Source: Citrobacter sp. FP75 | GTDB taxonomy: Bacteria; Pseudomonadota; Gammaproteobacteria; Enterobacterales; Enterobacteriaceae | Length of the DNA stretch: 64,000 bases | Reading direction: 5' to 3' | Assembly: GCF_018342065.1 (NCBI RefSeq) | Contig: NZ_JAFDOE010000001.1 | Coordinates: forward strand, 310,001 to 374,000 | Shown: in pieces, positions 5,641 to 12,159 of the stretch | Layout: the number at the start of each line of letters is the position of its first letter | Position numbering within the stretch: the stretch's first letter is position 1 | The notes under the pieces: generated by a model | What the model saw: only the letters and a program-made list of their open reading frames with translations | The model's database searches: none | Told to the model about the DNA's origin: nothing | Position numbers and translations under genes: made by a program

Positions 5641-5720
5641 CCAGCACCATGACGCAAGTTGCATTAATGCAGTCCCATAAAGTCGGCTTGCATGATGATG
5701 TTTTCAGAGAGGGAAGAACA

Positions 5721-7286
5721 ATGCTCGACACAAATATGAAAACCCAGCTCAGGGCTTACCTTGAGAAACTGACCAAACCTGTTGAGCTGATAGCCACGCT
5801 GGATGACAGCGCTAAATCGGCAGAAATCAAGGAACTGCTGACTGAAATTGCTGAACTGTCAGAAAAAGTCACCTTTAAAGAAAACAACACCCTGGCAGTA
5901 CGTAAGCCATCATTCCTGATTACTAACCCAGGCTCTCACCAGGGACCACGTTTTGCCGGTTCTCCGCTGGGTCATGAATTTACTTCACTGGTACTGGCGT
6001 TACTGTGGACCGGCGGCCATCCGTCAAAAGAGGCGCAGTCTCTGCTGGAGCAGATTAGCGCCCTTGACGGCGATTTTGAGTTTGAAACCTATTATTCGTT
6101 GTCCTGCCACAATTGTCCGGATGTTGTCCAGGCGCTGAACCTGATGTCCGTACTGAATCCGCGAATCAAGCACACGGCGATTGACGGTGGCACCTTCCAG
6201 AATGAGATTACCGATCGCAACGTGATGGGCGTTCCGGCCGTCTTTATGAACGGCCAAGAATTTGGCCAGGGGCGTATGACGCTGACAGAAATCGTCGCCA
6301 AAGTGGATACCGGTGCTGAGAAGCGTGCGGCGGAAGAACTGAATAAGCGTGATGCCTACGATGTATTGATTGTCGGATCCGGCCCGGCAGGGGCGGCAGC
6401 GGCGGTATATTCCGCACGTAAAGGTATTCGTACCGGCCTGATGGGCGAACGCTTTGGCGGTCAGGTTCTTGATACCGTTGATATCGAAAACTATATTTCG
6501 GTACCGAAAACCGAAGGTCAGAAACTGGCCGGCGCGCTGAAAGCGCACGTTGATGATTATGACGTTGATGTGATTGATAGCCAGAGCGCCAGCAAACTGA
6601 TTCCGGCGGCGCAGGAAGGGGGGTTACATCAGATTGAAACCGCATCCGGCGCGGTGCTAAAAGCACGCAGCATTATTATTGCCACCGGTGCAAAATGGCG
6701 CAACATGAATGTTCCGGGCGAGGATCAGTACCGTACTAAAGGCGTAACCTATTGCCCGCACTGTGACGGTCCGCTGTTCAAAGGCAAGCGTGTTGCGGTG
6801 ATTGGTGGCGGTAACTCGGGTGTTGAAGCGGCTATCGATCTGGCTGGTATTGTTGAGCATGTAACGCTACTGGAGTTTGCCCCGGAAATGAAGGCTGACC
6901 AGGTTCTGCAAAATAAACTGCGCAGCCTGAAAAACGTCGACATCATTCTGAATGCCCAAACCACCGAAGTGAAAGGCGACGGCAGCAAAGTCACCGGTCT
7001 GGAGTACCGTGACCGTGTCAGTGGTGACGTCCACAATGTGGAACTGGCGGGTATTTTTGTGCAGATTGGCCTGCTGCCGAATACCAACTGGCTGGAAGGT
7101 GCCGTTGAGCGTAACCGCATGGGCGAAATCATCATCGATACCCGGTGCGAAACCAGTGTGAAGGGCGTATTTGCGGCGGGCGACTGCACCACCGTACCGT
7201 ACAAGCAGATCATCATTGCCACTGGCGAAGGCGCAAAAGCGTCGTTGAGTTCCTTTGATTATCTGATCCGCACGACTACAGCATAA
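5721..7286 (+). CDS. ahpF: AhpF alkyl hydroperoxide reductase, NADH-dependent subunit
   Basis: Flavoprotein disulfide reductase that passes electrons from NADH through FAD and two redox-active cysteine pairs to AhpC. The N-terminal thioredoxin-like domain holds SCHNCPD (Cys129/Cys132); the thioredoxin-reductase-like part has the FAD loop [17 protein letters not shown], the NADH loop [15 protein letters not shown] and YCPHCDG (Cys345/Cys348). The frame is open from 5649, but the ATG at 5721, preceded by GAGGGAAG, gives the family's 521 residues and is chosen. It forms an operon with ahpC and ends at a strong terminator. Confidence 0.97.
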
Positions 7287-7316
7287 AAAGAAGTAAGACT
7301 CACCTGCAATACTCAA

Positions 7317-7347
7317 ACCGCCAGTTATCTGCTGGCGGTTTTTTTAT
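7317..7347 (+). terminator. Intrinsic terminator of ahpCF
   Basis: ACCGCCAG (7317-7324) pairs with CTGGCGGT (7332-7339) around a seven-base loop and is followed by a run of T residues. It lies 30 bases after the ahpF stop. Confidence 0.9.
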
Positions 7348-7420
7348 TTCCGTTCCTCGCAGATTGTCAATTCTTGAAACAATAAACTGCAAAAATCATT
7401 ATTTTAGTTAGCCTGATCAT

Positions 7421-7436
7421 TTCTTTGGTCAAAGAA
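7421..7436. promoter_or_regulatory. Perfect palindrome upstream of the torD/dms-like operon
   Basis: TTCTTTGGTCAAAGAA has two perfect 7-bp arms around GT and lies 77 bases before the first ATG of the operon, in an AT-rich promoter region (7348-7512). It does not fit the FNR (TTGAT-N4-ATCAA) or CRP consensus. It is a plausible operator for an unidentified regulator; no regulator gene is adjacent. Confidence 0.5.
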
Positions 7437-7512
7437 AGAGTTAGCGTTTTCGTTATTATATTAACCTGCATTATGTTTTCATTTGTTGTATGAATAAATG
7501 GTTGGTTAATTC

Positions 7513-8067
7513 ATGGGTGAAATTTATGAAACCCTGACGAGCTTTGAATCGACAGGGTTATTGTTGCGTGACTTTTTTATCTCTTACGATAGTAACACGC
7601 TGAAAGAGGCTTATTCAGCCCTGAATAAAAATGCCTCAACGCTAACAGAGCAGGAGTGGCTGGAAGCGGAGTACGACTTCAATGCGCTATTTGTCGGGCC
7701 GCAGACGTTAAAGGCCGCGCCGTTCGCGTCGGTTTATCTCGAAGAAGATGCCCTTGTGATGGGTAAATCAGCCCTGAACATTCGGGAGTTTATGGCGAAT
7801 ATAGGTCTATCCATAAATAACGCAAATAATATACCTGATGATCATATTTCTTATGTATTGGAATTGACGGTTTTATTATCAGCTAACGCCAGGGCATCGT
7901 CTGAATATCAGGTTGCATTAAACCGCTATGCAAAAGAGTATATAGCGAGTTGGGTGCCCGAGTATATAGAAAAAATAAATATAAATGCACAAACCGTCAC
8001 GTTGAAAAGCGTAGCGGAAAAATTGTCTTTTTGGCTTGATGAATTAAACACGAGAGTATCACTATGA
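7513..8067 (+). CDS. TorD/DmsD-family molybdoenzyme maturation chaperone
   Basis: All-helical cytoplasmic chaperone of 184 residues that is expected to bind the Tat signal of the following molybdoenzyme and help cofactor loading (TorD/DmsD/NarJ family role). Family marks are the segment EYDFNALFVGP near residue 55 and PDDHISYVLELTVLL near residue 115. It overlaps the catalytic-subunit gene by four bases (ATGA), a sign of translational coupling. The interior around 7790-7990 is AT-rich compared with dmsA-like. It is not DmsD itself by position: it belongs to this operon, which E. coli K-12 lacks between ahpF and uspG. Confidence 0.88.
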   Translation: MGEIYETLTSFESTGLLLRDFFISYDSNTLKEAYSALNKNASTLTEQEWLEAEYDFNALFVGPQTLKAAPFASVYLEEDALVMGKSALNIREFMANIGLSINNANNIPDDHISYVLELTVLLSANARASSEYQVALNRYAKEYIASWVPEYIEKININAQTVTLKSVAEKLSFWLDELNTRVSL

Positions 8068-10340
8068 GCAATGATCCGGGACTTCTGAACAGACGTTCTT
8101 TTTTAAAGGGATTGGTTGTACTGGGCACGGTAGCGGCTTTGCCGGGCGGGTTGTTGTCATCCCGCTGTGCTTATGCGCAGCCGCCGGTTCCGTTTAACCC
8201 TAAGACTTATAAAATTTTTCGCAATGCTTGTCCGCGTAACTGCTATGACACCTGTAGCATGAAAACCTGGGTGAAGGATGACGTTATCACCTTTGTGGAA
8301 GGTGCGCCGGAGTCGACTTTCACGCACGGAACGCCTTGTGTTAAAGGGCTGACGTATCCGCGTCGGGTATACAGCCCCGATCGCATTAAGTATCCGATGG
8401 TTCAGGATGGTCGTGGCAGCGGTAAATGGCGTCGGGTTTCCTGGGATGAGGCGATGCAGCGCATTGCCAGCAAAATGCTGGAAATCAAAAAGAAAGACGG
8501 CTCAATGTTGGGGCTGGCGCTGTCAAAATACTCAGGCAATCTTGGGGTAATGGGATACGCCGTTGAGGGGATGATGTCTTCTCTGGGTTACACCACGCGT
8601 TTTGCCGGTACACCATGCTGGCCTGCGGGTATTGATGCGCAGAACTACGACATGGGTGATATGTGGTGTAACGACCCGGAGGATTTTGTTAAAGCCAAAT
8701 ACATTATTATTTGGGGGGCAAATCCGGCATGGTGCTCGATGCACACCATGAAGTATATCTATCAGGCTCGCGAGAAAGGGGCGAAGGTCGTGGTGATTGA
8801 CCCACTGCTGACGCAAACGGCGGCCAAAGCCGATCTGTACCTGCGCGTTCGTCCGGGTTCTGATGGTGCGCTGGCGCTCGGTATGGCGCGTCACCTGGTG
8901 GACAAAGGTCTGGTTGATCAGGATTTCGTTAACAACTATTCCCACGGCTATGCCGAATTTGAAGATTACCTGCGCAATAACGTTACCGTCGAGTGGGCGT
9001 CTGAAATTTGTGGCCTGCCAGCCGATGTGATCCGTGAATTGGCCGAAGAGTTCACCGCGGTAAATCCTGCCACGGTGTGGATTGGCTACGGGATGCAGCG
9101 CCATGTCAACGGCGGCGCTAACGTCCGTGCGATCGACGCGTTTGTCGCGATGACCGGTAATATCGGCATTGAAGGCGGTGGCGCTCGCTACGGCCATTTG
9201 CAGACCTGGGGCTACAACTACCATGGCATGATGCAGAAACCGCCGGTGGGCTCTGTCGGGATGAAGGGGGCGGGTGGCCCAGTGGGTGAGTTTGTCAGCG
9301 ATAGCGGTGAAAAGAGCGAATACTCCGACCGCGCGCTGAACATTAACCAGACGGCGCAGGGGATCCTCGACGCCAGCGAACCGCCAGTACGAATGCTGTG
9401 GGTCGCGTCTAAAAACCCGTTTGCCCAGGATTTCGACCGCAACAAGATGGTGAAAGCGTTCGATAAACTGGAGATGGTGGTTTGTGTCGATCAGTTCTTC
9501 AATGAAACCGTGCAACACGCCGATATCGTCTTGCCTGTCACCACCACGTTTGAGCAGTGGGATGTCTCCTCGTCTTATTGGCACTACTGGTTGTCGGTCA
9601 ACGAACCGGCCATTAAACCGCTGTATGAGTGCAAAAGCGACCCGGAAATCGCCGCGTTGCTGTCCAAAACTATTAATAAACTGGAGCCGGGTTCGTGTAC
9701 CTTCCCGCAGGAGTTTGATGCCAAACGCTGGTTGGATCAGGAGTTCAACGAGGCGATGGGTAAACAGTTTGGTATTGCGGGCTGGGACGATCTGCTTGAA
9801 GGACCGCGCAAAGCGAAAATGGTCAGCACAGCGGCCTGGTACGATCGCAAATTTAAAACACCATCAGGCAAGTACGAATTTAAATCAGAACGCTGTGCGG
9901 AAAATGGTCACACTGCCTTGCCGGAATATAAGGCCGGTGCCAAAGGCGCGCTACCGTTCCATTTGTTTACGCCTCATCTCCAGTACGGACTGCACTCGCA
10001 GTTTGTGAATCTGGACTGGATGCAGGTTTTCTGGCCGGAACCGTTTGTGTATATCCATCCGTTTGCTGCGCAGAAAAAGGGGATTGCTGAAGGGGATCGC
10101 GTCAAAGTCTTCAACGAGGCGGGCCACGTTGAACTGCGCGCCAAAATCACCACCAACGTGCCGGAAGATTTCCTTGTGATGTATGAGTCCTGGTTCAACA
10201 AGCTTAGTTACAACGTACAAAACGTGGTTAAGGACACGCCGGCCGATATGGGAAAAATGGCGACCGGCGCACCCGGCGCGGCCATTCACAGTCAATTTGT
10301 AGATATTACCCTGTTGGGAAGTGAAGGAGCTGCGGCATGA
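8064..10340 (+). CDS. Tat-exported molybdopterin oxidoreductase, catalytic subunit (DmsA-like)
   Basis: Catalytic subunit of a DMSO-reductase-superfamily enzyme, 758 residues. A twin-arginine signal is present (NRRSFLKG, then a hydrophobic core ending at AYA). The [4Fe-4S] motif is Cys56, Cys60, Cys64 and Cys92. Motifs typical of bis-MGD binding follow (IIIWGANPAWC, VVIDPLLTQTA, VRPGSDGALALGM). Cys185 in AGTPCWPAG lies where these enzymes place the molybdenum ligand, so a cysteine ligand rather than the serine of DmsA is possible (inference from an eye alignment). The operon layout chaperone-A-B-C predicts a periplasm-facing, quinol-linked complex. Substrate unknown; a Salmonella operon of the same kind is annotated only generally. 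Confidence 0.9.
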   Translation: MSNDPGLLNRRSFLKGLVVLGTVAALPGGLLSSRCAYAQPPVPFNPKTYKIFRNACPRNCYDTCSMKTWVKDDVITFVEGAPESTFTHGTPCVKGLTYPRRVYSPDRIKYPMVQDGRGSGKWRRVSWDEAMQRIASKMLEIKKKDGSMLGLALSKYSGNLGVMGYAVEGMMSSLGYTTRFAGTPCWPAGIDAQNYDMGDMWCNDPEDFVKAKYIIIWGANPAWCSMHTMKYIYQAREKGAKVVVIDPLLTQTAAKADLYLRVRPGSDGALALGMARHLVDKGLVDQDFVNNYSHGYAEFEDYLRNNVTVEWASEICGLPADVIRELAEEFTAVNPATVWIGYGMQRHVNGGANVRAIDAFVAMTGNIGIEGGGARYGHLQTWGYNYHGMMQKPPVGSVGMKGAGGPVGEFVSDSGEKSEYSDRALNINQTAQGILDASEPPVRMLWVASKNPFAQDFDRNKMVKAFDKLEMVVCVDQFFNETVQHADIVLPVTTTFEQWDVSSSYWHYWLSVNEPAIKPLYECKSDPEIAALLSKTINKLEPGSCTFPQEFDAKRWLDQEFNEAMGKQFGIAGWDDLLEGPRKAKMVSTAAWYDRKFKTPSGKYEFKSERCAENGHTALPEYKAGAKGALPFHLFTPHLQYGLHSQFVNLDWMQVFWPEPFVYIHPFAAQKKGIAEGDRVKVFNEAGHVELRAKITTNVPEDFLVMYESWFNKLSYNVQNVVKDTPADMGKMATGAPGAAIHSQFVDITLLGSEGAAA

Positions 10341-10894
10341 GACGCGCGTTTTTAGTCAATAGCGATAAATGCATCGGCTGCCGTGGCTGCGCGATGGCGT
10401 GTAAGAGCTTTAACCAACTGGAGCCTGAACGCTACTGGCGCTATGTCTACCCGCTGGATAAAGAAATTTATCCGCATGAGGAGCGGGCGTTCTACTCGCT
10501 GGCCTGTAACCACTGCGAAAATCCGGCCTGCCTTGCGGCTTGTCCGGTAGAGGCCTACACCAAACGCGAAGATGGTGTGGTGGTGCATAACCCAGAACGC
10601 TGTATCGGATGTAAAAACTGTATCCGCAACTGCCCTTACGGTGCTCCGCGCTTCAATGAAGAGACGAAAAAGGCGGAAAAATGCAGTATGTGTTACGAAC
10701 GTCTTGATGTCGGGATGAACCCGGCGTGTGTGAACGCCTGTCCGGTAGGTGCACTTACTCTTATTGATCTGGATGCTGACCCCATCCCGAACAATGCCGT
10801 GCAGTATCCGCCGGGGTTCCCACGCATGCCGCAGCTTAATCCTGGGACGCGTTTTATCCTAGCTCGCCAACCGAAGCAGCCGGAGGACAAGTAA
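10337..10894 (+). CDS. Four-cluster ferredoxin subunit (DmsB-like)
   Basis: Electron-transfer subunit of 185 residues carrying cysteine motifs for four [4Fe-4S] clusters: DKCIGCRGCAMACKSF, ACNHCENPACLAACPVEAY, ERCIGCKNCIRNCPYG and KCSMCYERLD with ACVNACPVGAL. No signal peptide is seen, so it would be exported bound to the Tat-targeted catalytic subunit, as with DmsB. It overlaps the upstream gene by four bases and shares one base with the downstream anchor gene, so the three subunits are translationally coupled. Confidence 0.92.
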   Translation: MRRAFLVNSDKCIGCRGCAMACKSFNQLEPERYWRYVYPLDKEIYPHEERAFYSLACNHCENPACLAACPVEAYTKREDGVVVHNPERCIGCKNCIRNCPYGAPRFNEETKKAEKCSMCYERLDVGMNPACVNACPVGALTLIDLDADPIPNNAVQYPPGFPRMPQLNPGTRFILARQPKQPEDK

Positions 10895-11661
10895 TGGAAA
10901 AGTATGAACTTCCTCTGGTGATTTTTACGGTTTTAAGCCAGATGTCTGTCGGGATGACACTCATTCTGACGCTGCGCACATTGCGTGGGCAACTGGAGAG
11001 CAAGCGTCTTTACTGGCTGGTTAGCGGACTGATCCTGGCGGCGGCGTCCGTGGCGGCGGTGTTACACCTCGCACACCCGGATCGCGCCTACAACGCCCTG
11101 ATTAACCTGCAGCATGCATGGTTGAGCCGCGAAATTCTCGGTGCAACCTTGTACGGAGCGGCAGTCGGTGTGGCGTTCCTGGCGAAGGGGCACAAAGTTC
11201 CGGCCGTTCTGGCATCTCTTCTCGGGATCGCGCTGGTGGCGGTACAAGGCATGACCTATGCCGCACCGGCAATGGTCGCTATCGCCAATGGTCTGACGAT
11301 GCTGCTGTTCTTTACTACGGTATGGGTCATGGGCTGTGCGGCGATTCCGCTACTTAATCTCGCACCTGCGGTTAGCGCATTACGCCAGGGGATTGTGGTT
11401 TGCCTGGCAGTGCTGATCGCCGCGCCGATTATCTGGTTAAGCGGTGGCACCATTATGCAGATGACGGCACATGCCTGGCTTTCGTCACCGCTTTATCTGG
11501 CGAGTCTGGTGTGTCTGGCGCTGGCCTTCGTGCTGAGCCGTCACGGTGAGCGTAGAGCTAAGGTGCTCTTTATCCTGCTGTTTGTTGGCGTATTTCTGAG
11601 CCGTCTGACGTTCTTTGGCGATACGGTCAGCACCATCGTAAATATCGGTCACTTGTACTGA
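10894..11661 (+). CDS. DmsC-like integral membrane anchor subunit
   Basis: Polytopic membrane protein of 255 residues with about eight hydrophobic segments, the first at residues 5-25 and the last near the C-terminus. The start fits the DmsC family (MEKYELPLVIFTVLSQMSVG). It is expected to anchor the catalytic and ferredoxin subunits and to oxidise menaquinol. The start ATG overlaps the stop of the ferredoxin gene (TAATG). The operon ends 14 bases later at a bidirectional terminator. Confidence 0.88.
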   Translation: MEKYELPLVIFTVLSQMSVGMTLILTLRTLRGQLESKRLYWLVSGLILAAASVAAVLHLAHPDRAYNALINLQHAWLSREILGATLYGAAVGVAFLAKGHKVPAVLASLLGIALVAVQGMTYAAPAMVAIANGLTMLLFFTTVWVMGCAAIPLLNLAPAVSALRQGIVVCLAVLIAAPIIWLSGGTIMQMTAHAWLSSPLYLASLVCLALAFVLSRHGERRAKVLFILLFVGVFLSRLTFFGDTVSTIVNIGHLY

Positions 11662-11674
11662 TCGTGATGAAATA

Positions 11675-11710
11675 AAAACCCCTGTCAGGGCTTCACCTGG
11701 CAGGGGTTTT
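11675..11710. terminator. Bidirectional terminator between the dms-like operon and uspG
   Basis: AAAACCCCTG-TCAGG-GCTTCA-CCTGG-CAGGGGTTTT forms a long stem with A- and T-rich ends on both strands. It serves the plus-strand dms-like operon and the minus-strand uspG, which converge here. Confidence 0.9.
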
Positions 11711-11730: not shown

Positions 11731-12159
11731 TTAACGTACAACCAGCACCGGCAGGGTCGCGTGACGCACAACGCTGGAGGCGTTAGAGCCGAGCAGATGA
11801 GTGCTGATTGACGGGTTACGTGACCCAATGACCACGACATCCGCATTGAGCTCTTCGCCCAACTCGTTGACTACATCACGCACGCTACCAAAGCGAACGT
11901 GCTGTTTGATGCGCGAAGGGTCAATACTGAAGTGACCGACCATCGTTTGCAGACGGGTTTCCGCTTCGTGCTGCAGATGTTCCTCAAAACGACGAACGTC
12001 AGCAGCAAAACGATGCAGGCTTAAGCTGGCGGAGCCAGGAAGCACATGCAGGAGATGGATAATCCCGTTTTCCTGTGCCAGAAATTCTGCATGGCGAACA
12101 GCCTTATCGCTCAGTTCCATTTCGAATACATCAACAGGCATTATGATTGTGTTGTACAT
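11731..12159 (-). CDS. uspG: UspG universal stress protein
   Basis: Small cytoplasmic universal stress protein of 142 residues that binds nucleotide and is autophosphorylated/adenylylated in E. coli. The N-terminal beta-strand [20 protein letters not shown] and the C-terminal nucleotide loop [20 protein letters not shown] are intact. The frame extends upstream, but AAGGAG seven bases before the ATG at 12159 and the family length favour this start. It stands alone, converging on the dms-like operon. Confidence 0.95.

Follow-up and report, generated by a model that had tools for sequence, protein, structure and literature searches.

Anaerobic respiration shapes the gut growth of Salmonella, Citrobacter and Enterobacter. 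Among the described molybdoenzymes, PhsA, PsrA and TtrA are Cys-ligated three-subunit periplasmic reductases of thiosulfate, polysulfide and tetrathionate, respectively, whose membrane anchors are of the NrfD or cytochrome b type and not of the DmsC type. DmsC anchors, as in dimethyl sulfoxide (DMSO) reductase, are quinol oxidases. In Salmonella, thiosulfate and tetrathionate reduction are credited to phs and ttr. Here, a four-gene operon of Citrobacter sp. FP75 was analysed within a stretch of 64,000 nucleotides (the window; assembly GCF_018342065.1, contig NZ_JAFDOE010000001.1, positions 310,001-374,000), to which all coordinates refer unless a locus is named. Judged from its sequence, the operon probably (at about three chances in four) encodes a quinol-driven terminal reductase of the complex iron-sulfur molybdoenzyme type, which faces the periplasm and holds its metal through a Cys residue. 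It would constitute a whole respiratory complex of gut bacteria for which no assigned acceptor was found.

The catalytic subunit and its predicted metal ligand

The catalytic subunit contains Molybdopterin, Molydop_binding and Molybdop_Fe4S4 domains above the Pfam cut-offs, placing it in the MopB/DMSO-reductase superfamily. Its clade was aligned as 17 sequences, comprising that of the window and 16 others sharing 62-97% identity with it. The conserved twin-arginine motif (Table 1) points to export by the twin-arginine translocation (Tat) system, with the Pfam TAT_signal model scoring 20.5, slightly below its cut-off of 22.7.

Cys185, the predicted metal ligand, is invariant in all 17 clade sequences, as are 24 of the 26 residues at positions 182-207. 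In an L-INS-i alignment of 50 rows, the Cys185 column coincides with the in-frame TGA (selenocysteine, Sec) of three formate-dehydrogenase-type frames of the same genome (L040, L052 and L053), and is occupied by Cys in the genome's own NapA-, PhsA- and TtrA-type rows and by Ser in its own DmsA. Under three other MAFFT modes with 56 rows, in which the Sec positions were not separately followed, the ligand column held C in 50 rows and S in six, the latter being the genome's own DmsA, YnfF, bisC-family, BisC and TorA-type rows and the DmsA of Rhodovastum. The genome's own DmsA, YnfF type, TorA, bisC family and PhsA were named by NCBIfam, and the FdhF, FdnG/FdoG, NapA, NarG, TtrA and BisC types by eye. 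The NarG row also shows C in this column and is probably misaligned, because the ligand of NarG is Asp. The residue following Cys185 is Trp186, where formate dehydrogenases have His after Sec.

The preliminary description of this locus had placed Cys185 near the position of the molybdenum (Mo) ligand, which agrees with its sharing a column with the Sec, Cys and Ser ligands of the genome's own paralogues, suggesting that Cys185 ligates Mo. The difference from the Ser of DmsA, pointed out in the same description, also holds, but not as a change within DmsA: of the 56 rows, the 22 that represent relatives at about 30% identity likewise all have Cys in the ligand column, so that Cys is, on this comparison, the usual state of the branch and not a Ser-to-Cys swap inside DmsA.

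Separation from DmsA and other described families

Neither the catalytic nor the Fe-S subunit reached an NCBIfam cut-off among the matches listed (25 of 27 and 25 of 47, respectively), and the following scores come from these matches. The best match of the catalytic subunit was dmsA_ynfE (TIGR02166) with 302.7 bits against a cut-off of 777.7, whereas the genome's own DmsA scored 1425 bits on the same model. Fdh-alpha, among the top profile matches, gave 279 bits (cut-off 666.25), and the equivalog models for PhsA (NF012032; 252.6 bits, cut-off 694), ArrA (133, cut-off 1600) and TtrA (75.7, cut-off 1750) also placed the protein outside their families. Within the genome, the next match is 34% identical, and the value by blastp is 27.5% (own DmsA).

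All 17 members of the clade were united in the 56-row tree with a support of 100, and the DmsA/Ynf/Tor/Bis rows made up a different group, supported at 98. After removal of the longest branches (34 rows), forcing the clade together with the genome's own DmsA, its YnfF-type piece and the Rhodovastum DmsA cost 67.3 log units (approximately unbiased (AU) test, p = 0.000272). These trees are quick searches supported by the SH-like approximate likelihood-ratio test alone, in which several long branches meet, so the sister group of the clade is less sure than its separation from DmsA. The Citrobacter YnfF piece stood for YnfE/F in the tree set, which was composed without E. coli YnfE, ArrA, PsrA, SrdA and catechol dehydroxylases. 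By these comparisons the catalytic subunit is not DmsA and belongs to a separate Cys-type lineage, in line with the distinction drawn in the preliminary description; the firm DmsA/YnfE clustering that would have contradicted it did not appear in the trees, with the YnfF piece as stand-in and E. coli YnfE outside the set. The one ynf-type catalytic gene noticed in the genome (L111, 1185-3606) is itself split into frames of 198 and 655 amino acids, perhaps because it is a pseudogene or was misassembled.

The partner subunits and the predicted direction of electron flow

With a catalytic subunit bearing FS0, a ferredoxin with four [4Fe-4S] motifs and an anchor in one operon, the gene content is that of a complex iron-sulfur molybdoenzyme. 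The ferredoxin matches Pfam Fer4_11, and its Cys residues fall into four groups of four. It scored 142.9 bits on the DmsB model (TIGR02951), below the equivalog cut-off of 214.1, and its closest solved structure is the ferredoxin subunit of the ArrA entry 6cz7 (9.5e-33), followed by the type II, ethylbenzene dehydrogenase and Thermus NrfC-type subunits. DmsD structures match the chaperone at 1.5e-9.

The anchor scored 63.8 bits on Pfam DmsC (PF04976; cut-off 22.3). Its His58 and Glu80, at the positions of His65 and Glu87 of the menaquinol site of DmsC, are invariant in all ten sequences compared, the genome's own DmsC and YnfH-type anchors among them, and the predicted direction of electron flow is accordingly from quinol to the catalytic subunit. 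We know of no described combination of a Cys-type catalytic subunit with a DmsC-type anchor, PhsC, PsrC, TtrC and ArrC being of other types; a narrow and therefore weak literature search on DmsC/NrfD anchors and ligand type did not find this combination either.

Adjoining hydrogenase genes

In Superficieibacter (L018; L019, which is the same contig as L089; and L090) and in Kluyvera (L027), hypA and [NiFe] hydrogenase genes lie downstream of the operon on the same strand. Next to the anchor gene, after a gap of 80 bases in L018, come hypA, the gene for the small subunit of a Tat-type [NiFe] hydrogenase, and genes of the HybA, HybB and HybC types. For L018, these assignments are supported by Pfam HypA, NiFe_hyd_SSU_C and Fer4_11, while no Pfam family matched the HybB-like protein and HybC was recognized by eye. 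The arrangement suggests H2 as electron donor and the operon enzyme as a reductase, because adjoining hydrogenase genes fit a chain from H2 to a terminal acceptor.

Distribution and mobility of the operon

In the genome_contigs collection, 22 loci encode relatives of the catalytic subunit, 21 of them at 62-97% identity, and all four genes are present in 20 of these 21, a recurrence beyond what chance would give. The nearest named relatives are from Citrobacter sp. MGH106 (97%) and C. braakii (96%). Carriers at 81-97% belong to Citrobacter, Enterobacter, Raoultella, Pseudenterobacter, Kluyvera and Superficieibacter, and those at 62-69% are metagenome-assembled genomes (MAGs) labelled Desulfovibrio (two), Proteobacteria, bacterium, Desulfuromonadales and Actinomycetota, labels that are as reliable as the binning. 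The lineage is thus spread thinly over bacteria of gut and sediment. At E ≤ 1e-150, the catalytic subunit was found in 10 of 17 genomes of the genus and 10 of 295 of the family sample (own genome counted in both). The order sample gave 4 of 295 at 1e-80 (own genome and three at about 31%), and the phylum sample 15 of 398 (own genome and 14 at 31-37%).

The operon is flanked by ahpF and uspG at seven Citrobacter, three Enterobacter and one Pseudenterobacter loci and in three further genomes (G179, G227 and G260). Neither gene was found beside it in Superficieibacter, Kluyvera, Raoultella, the genera g115 and g141, or plasmid CP027641. The position between ahpF and uspG given in the preliminary description is right, but the operon is no isolated oddity: its relatives share this site in Enterobacter, in other Citrobacter and in the three further genomes, and occupy other sites in other genera, plasmids and MAGs. 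Among the seven operon-less Citrobacter genomes, six have ahpF directly next to uspG. In the seventh (G917, L109), the place of ahpF beside uspG is taken by genes recognized by eye as encoding a coenzyme A (CoA) transferase, two acyl-CoA dehydrogenases, electron-transfer-flavoprotein-like and FixC-like proteins, a transporter and a regulator of the AraC type; the 12 kb analysed from this genome did not extend as far as ahpF. The site seems to accept accessory metabolic cargo and is a possible insertion hotspot.

The conjugative IncF E. coli plasmid CP027641 also carries the operon (L059, 7270-11440), with a catalytic subunit 79% identical to that of the window. By eye, its neighbours there are the traI end of the transfer region on one side and a gene for a TonB-dependent receptor on the other. 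With this version as query, 5 of 5,426 complete E. coli genomes matched, all on plasmids (one over the whole operon, one over 78% and three over 10%), and the window version matched two further E. coli genomes over 47%, both again on plasmids. In NZ_LR890350, one of these two, IS26 is followed by a truncated catalytic gene and then by the ferredoxin and anchor genes, uspG, rnk, rna and citT. This arrangement looks like a piece of a Citrobacter chromosome that has been captured.

Within Citrobacter, part of the catalytic gene shows 86-90% DNA identity in a set including C. braakii and MGH106 and only 72-77% to three other Citrobacter, while its N-terminal half and the ferredoxin and anchor genes show 81-93% across all six. 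This pattern looks like partial replacement of the catalytic gene by recombination. In Raoultella ornithinolytica (L025, 6001-8278), the catalytic gene is present in two frames (279 and 517 amino acids). Near the non-enteric operons, mutually similar putative secreted proteins without a Pfam family are encoded (L022, 3453-3845, minus strand; L021, 2365-3225, minus; L024, 6316-6759, plus), and LuxR-type regulators lie upstream in L022 and L024 (GerE in both, PAS in L024). These neighbours were considered as a guide to the substrate and set aside, as they name none.

The probable Salmonella counterpart

In G260, which we take to be Salmonella LT2, the gene order is ahpF-torD-A-B-C-uspG and the catalytic subunit is 82.6% identical to that of the window. 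In the literature, STM0608 is printed as ahpC, STM0609 as ahpF and STM0614 as ybdQ/uspG, and STM0611 appears among predicted Tat substrates as 'ynfEb', where the b may be a footnote mark. STM0610-STM0613 are very probably the four-gene operon, as judged from the locus numbering and the presumed identity of G260. In a literature search that lay outside most subscription journals, no function was found for STM0611, no mention of STM0610, STM0612 or STM0613, and no paper that links ahpF and uspG with a DMSO reductase.

According to a 2025 preprint on Salmonella DmsA paralogues (STM14_1089, 1809, 1811, 3103 and 5178; PMC12636705), which includes a neighbour-joining tree of 17 MopB proteins, DmsA and Psr1A-3A retain Ser, DMSO reduction requires DmsA Ser205, and membranes of a mutant lacking four paralogues fail on sulfate but respire thiosulfate and DMSO. 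Its main text contains no 'STM0' number and no 'ahpF' (PMC12636705). The selenate reductase phenotype of a Salmonella ynfF-deletion strain is reported to depend on YnfE. If the orthologue is present and expressed in these strains under the conditions used, the operon does not supply selenate, sulfate or DMSO reduction; otherwise the results are uninformative. Under the same proviso, the crediting of selenate reduction to YnfE speaks against the selenium-oxyanion substrate considered in the preliminary description, whose guess at the substrate is not upheld.

Operon layout, flanks and upstream region

Open reading frames, overlaps and Pfam matches agree on a coupled four-gene molybdoenzyme operon (Table 1), as described before, between two genes that are neighbours in E. 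coli K-12, where ahpF ends at 641318, uspG occupies 641439-641867 (minus strand) and no gene is annotated in the gap. The ends of successive genes overlap by 4, 4 and 1 bases. Of the terminators said to flank the operon, the one after ahpF is strong. The second is a fair description if the hairpin works both ways: it was called on the minus strand, and a CCCCTG...CAGGGG pairing with a longer loop is visible by eye on the plus strand. It perhaps serves both the operon and uspG.

Table 1 Features of the operon and its surroundings in the window
Feature	Position	Strand	Support and remarks
ahpF	5649-7286	+	left neighbour, conserved flank
Intrinsic-terminator-like hairpin closing the ahpCF unit	7315-7341	+	11-pair stem, 6 G-C, loop 5, T-run
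Operon upstream region	7342-7512	+	conserved [AG]TCAAA[AG]AA element at 7428-7436; TATTAT-like -10 by eye
TorD/DmsD-family chaperone, 184 aa	7513-8067	+	Pfam Nitrate_red_del, 83.5 bits
Catalytic subunit, MopB/DMSO-reductase superfamily, 758 aa, twin-arginine signal, one FS0 [4Fe-4S] motif	8064-10340	+	Pfam, invariant residues, trees
Twin-arginine motif LNRRSFLKGL, residues 8-17	8085-8114	+	R10, R11, F13, L14 and L17 invariant in 17/17
FS0 cysteines C56, C60, C64 and C92 (C-x3-C-x3-C-x27-C)	8229-8339	+	direct reading; invariant in 17/17
Signature GTPCWPAGIDAQNYDMGDMWCNDPED, residues 182-207, with predicted metal ligand Cys185 (8616-8618)	8607-8684	+	
Fe-S electron-transfer subunit, 185 aa, 16 Cys, four [4Fe-4S] motifs	10337-10894	+	
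DmsC-family membrane anchor, 255 aa	10894-11661	+	Pfam DmsC
Terminator-like hairpin in the operon/uspG gap	11675-11694	-	called on minus strand only, serves uspG
uspG	11731-12159	-	right neighbour, conserved flank

The [AG]TCAAA[AG]AA element occurs in 13 of 14 aligned upstream regions. A near-palindrome, TTTCTTTG-GT-CAAAGAAA, lies at 7420-7437, and its right part fits this element. The best match to the FNR consensus TTGATN4ATCAA in the upstream region of the operon in the window has 7 of 10 positions. Of 500 shuffles, which were drawn by first-order Markov resampling instead of exact dinucleotide shuffling, 463 did as well. The other 13 upstream regions gave 6 to 8 of 10, the scores of 8 being equalled by 136 to 178 of 500 shuffles.

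Discussion

The operon is a coherent, patchily spread branch of a well-known kind of enzyme. In the proposed terminal reductase, the chaperone would hold the catalytic subunit until its bis-molybdopterin guanine dinucleotide cofactor is loaded, and the Tat system would export it together with the ferredoxin subunit. The anchor would take electrons from menaquinol (or ubiquinol) at the His58/Glu80 site, and these would pass through the four [4Fe-4S] clusters and then FS0 to the Mo held by Cys185. The acceptor would be a small oxidised compound, probably not DMSO. The function of the enzyme is not fixed by sequence, as the preliminary description had also stated. Our first choice of substrate, a tentative one with the odds against it, is a polysulfide- or thiosulfate-type inorganic sulfur compound, in which an S-S bond can be reduced, because the Cys-ligated three-subunit PhsA, PsrA and TtrA act on such substrates and because the carriers include Desulfovibrio and Desulfuromonadales MAGs. 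No literature on Citrobacter molybdoenzymes in anaerobic respiration of thiosulfate or selenate was found, most subscription journals being outside the search.

Electrons might instead run in reverse, from a formate-, sulfite-, arsenite- or polysulfide-like substrate to quinone. Formate dehydrogenases likewise have a Cys or Sec ligand, and the top profile matches include Fdh-alpha, but Trp186 replaces the His that follows Sec, hydrogenase genes in four genomes are more natural beside a terminal reductase, and DmsC anchors oxidise quinol, making this direction unlikely. A non-redox or organic-aromatic role, like that of acetylene hydratase or transhydroxylase-type MopB enzymes, finds some encouragement in the matches of the catalytic profile to acetylene hydratase (3.8e-39) and pyrogallol transhydroxylase (9.1e-31), although many other MopB structures match better, and we know of no function for the phylogenetic neighbours at about 31% identity. 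The Tat motif, the four-cluster ferredoxin and the quinone anchor all point to electron transport, and such a role seems very improbable.

The enzyme would be placed near the DMSO and selenate reductases by the profile searches and by the printed name ynfE(b), and a divergent DmsABC/YnfEFGH acting on DMSO, methionine sulfoxide or selenate would account for the best NCBIfam match, the DmsC-family anchor and the equal FS0 spacing, C-x3-C-x3-C. The ligand and the tree contradict this placement: all six DmsA/Ynf/Tor/Bis-type rows have Ser, the score falls far below the family cut-off and the AU test rejects the grouping. The Salmonella results, with DmsA Ser205 needed for DMSO (PMC12636705) and YnfE for selenate, add to the case if the orthologue is present and expressed, and we consider a divergent DmsA quite unlikely. 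Catalysis at FS0, as claimed for the Salmonella sulfate reductases Psr1-3, would suit the common superfamily, the similar subunit set and an FS0 spacing like that of the DmsA/Psr2/Psr3 group (PMC12636705). According to the same preprint, DmsA and Psr1A-3A have Ser, and they are treated as DmsA paralogues. The operon enzyme has Cys and is not one; in addition, membranes lacking the four dmsA paralogues fail on sulfate in a strain that probably retains the STM0611 orthologue. Chemistry of this kind is very improbable here.

Several points weigh against the proposed Cys-ligated, quinol-driven reductase. The hydrogenase linkage is limited to four genomes, all close kin, and one close relative (L024) is without a recognisable anchor gene. 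An AlphaFold model of the catalytic subunit from the 17-row alignment was too poor to use (mean predicted local distance difference test score 53.4, predicted template modelling score 0.43). FNR control was dropped as evidence, no site rising above the shuffles, which leaves anaerobic control unproven. In Salmonella, which seems to carry the orthologue, phs, ttr and ynf are credited with reducing thiosulfate, tetrathionate and selenate, respectively, which weakens the choice of a sulfur compound. The metal role of Cys185 is also made less certain by the claim, in the 2025 preprint, of catalysis at FS0 independent of the molybdenum cofactor in related enzymes (PMC12636705).

Beyond the proposed reductase itself, the operon may represent a distinct, undescribed family of respiratory molybdoenzymes, a view to which we give slightly less than even odds. 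Such a family would combine a Cys-ligated subunit bearing the signature GTPCWPAGIDAQNYDMGDMW with a DmsC-type quinol-oxidising anchor, would move by lateral transfer among gut Enterobacteriaceae, their plasmids and anaerobes from other phyla, in some cases as a single unit with an uptake hydrogenase, and would use an acceptor new for Salmonella and Citrobacter.

Compared with known systems, the nearest rows outside the clade in both trees (97 and 94) are the molybdopterin-dependent oxidoreductases of Peptoclostridium (L095) and Acetoanaerobium (L096), which share the Cys ligand but are shorter (655 and 651 amino acids) and sit on long branches that leave the kinship unsure; L095 has no ferredoxin or anchor gene beside the catalytic gene, and L096 is an unannotated locus. 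The Salmonella genes STM0610-STM0613 would be alike in their four genes in the ahpF-uspG slot and, by way of G260, in the catalytic subunit. PhsA, PsrA and TtrA are alike in the Cys at the ligand column, as seen in the genome's own PhsA- and TtrA-type rows, whereas the own PhsA is 25% identical to the catalytic subunit, which scores far under the PhsA cut-off. E. coli DmsABC/YnfEFGH share the chaperone, the twin-arginine motif, the FS0 spacing, the four-cluster ferredoxin and, in an anchor of the DmsC type, the His/Glu pair, but differ in the Ser ligand, in their separate clade and in the low identity of the genome's own DmsA to the catalytic subunit.

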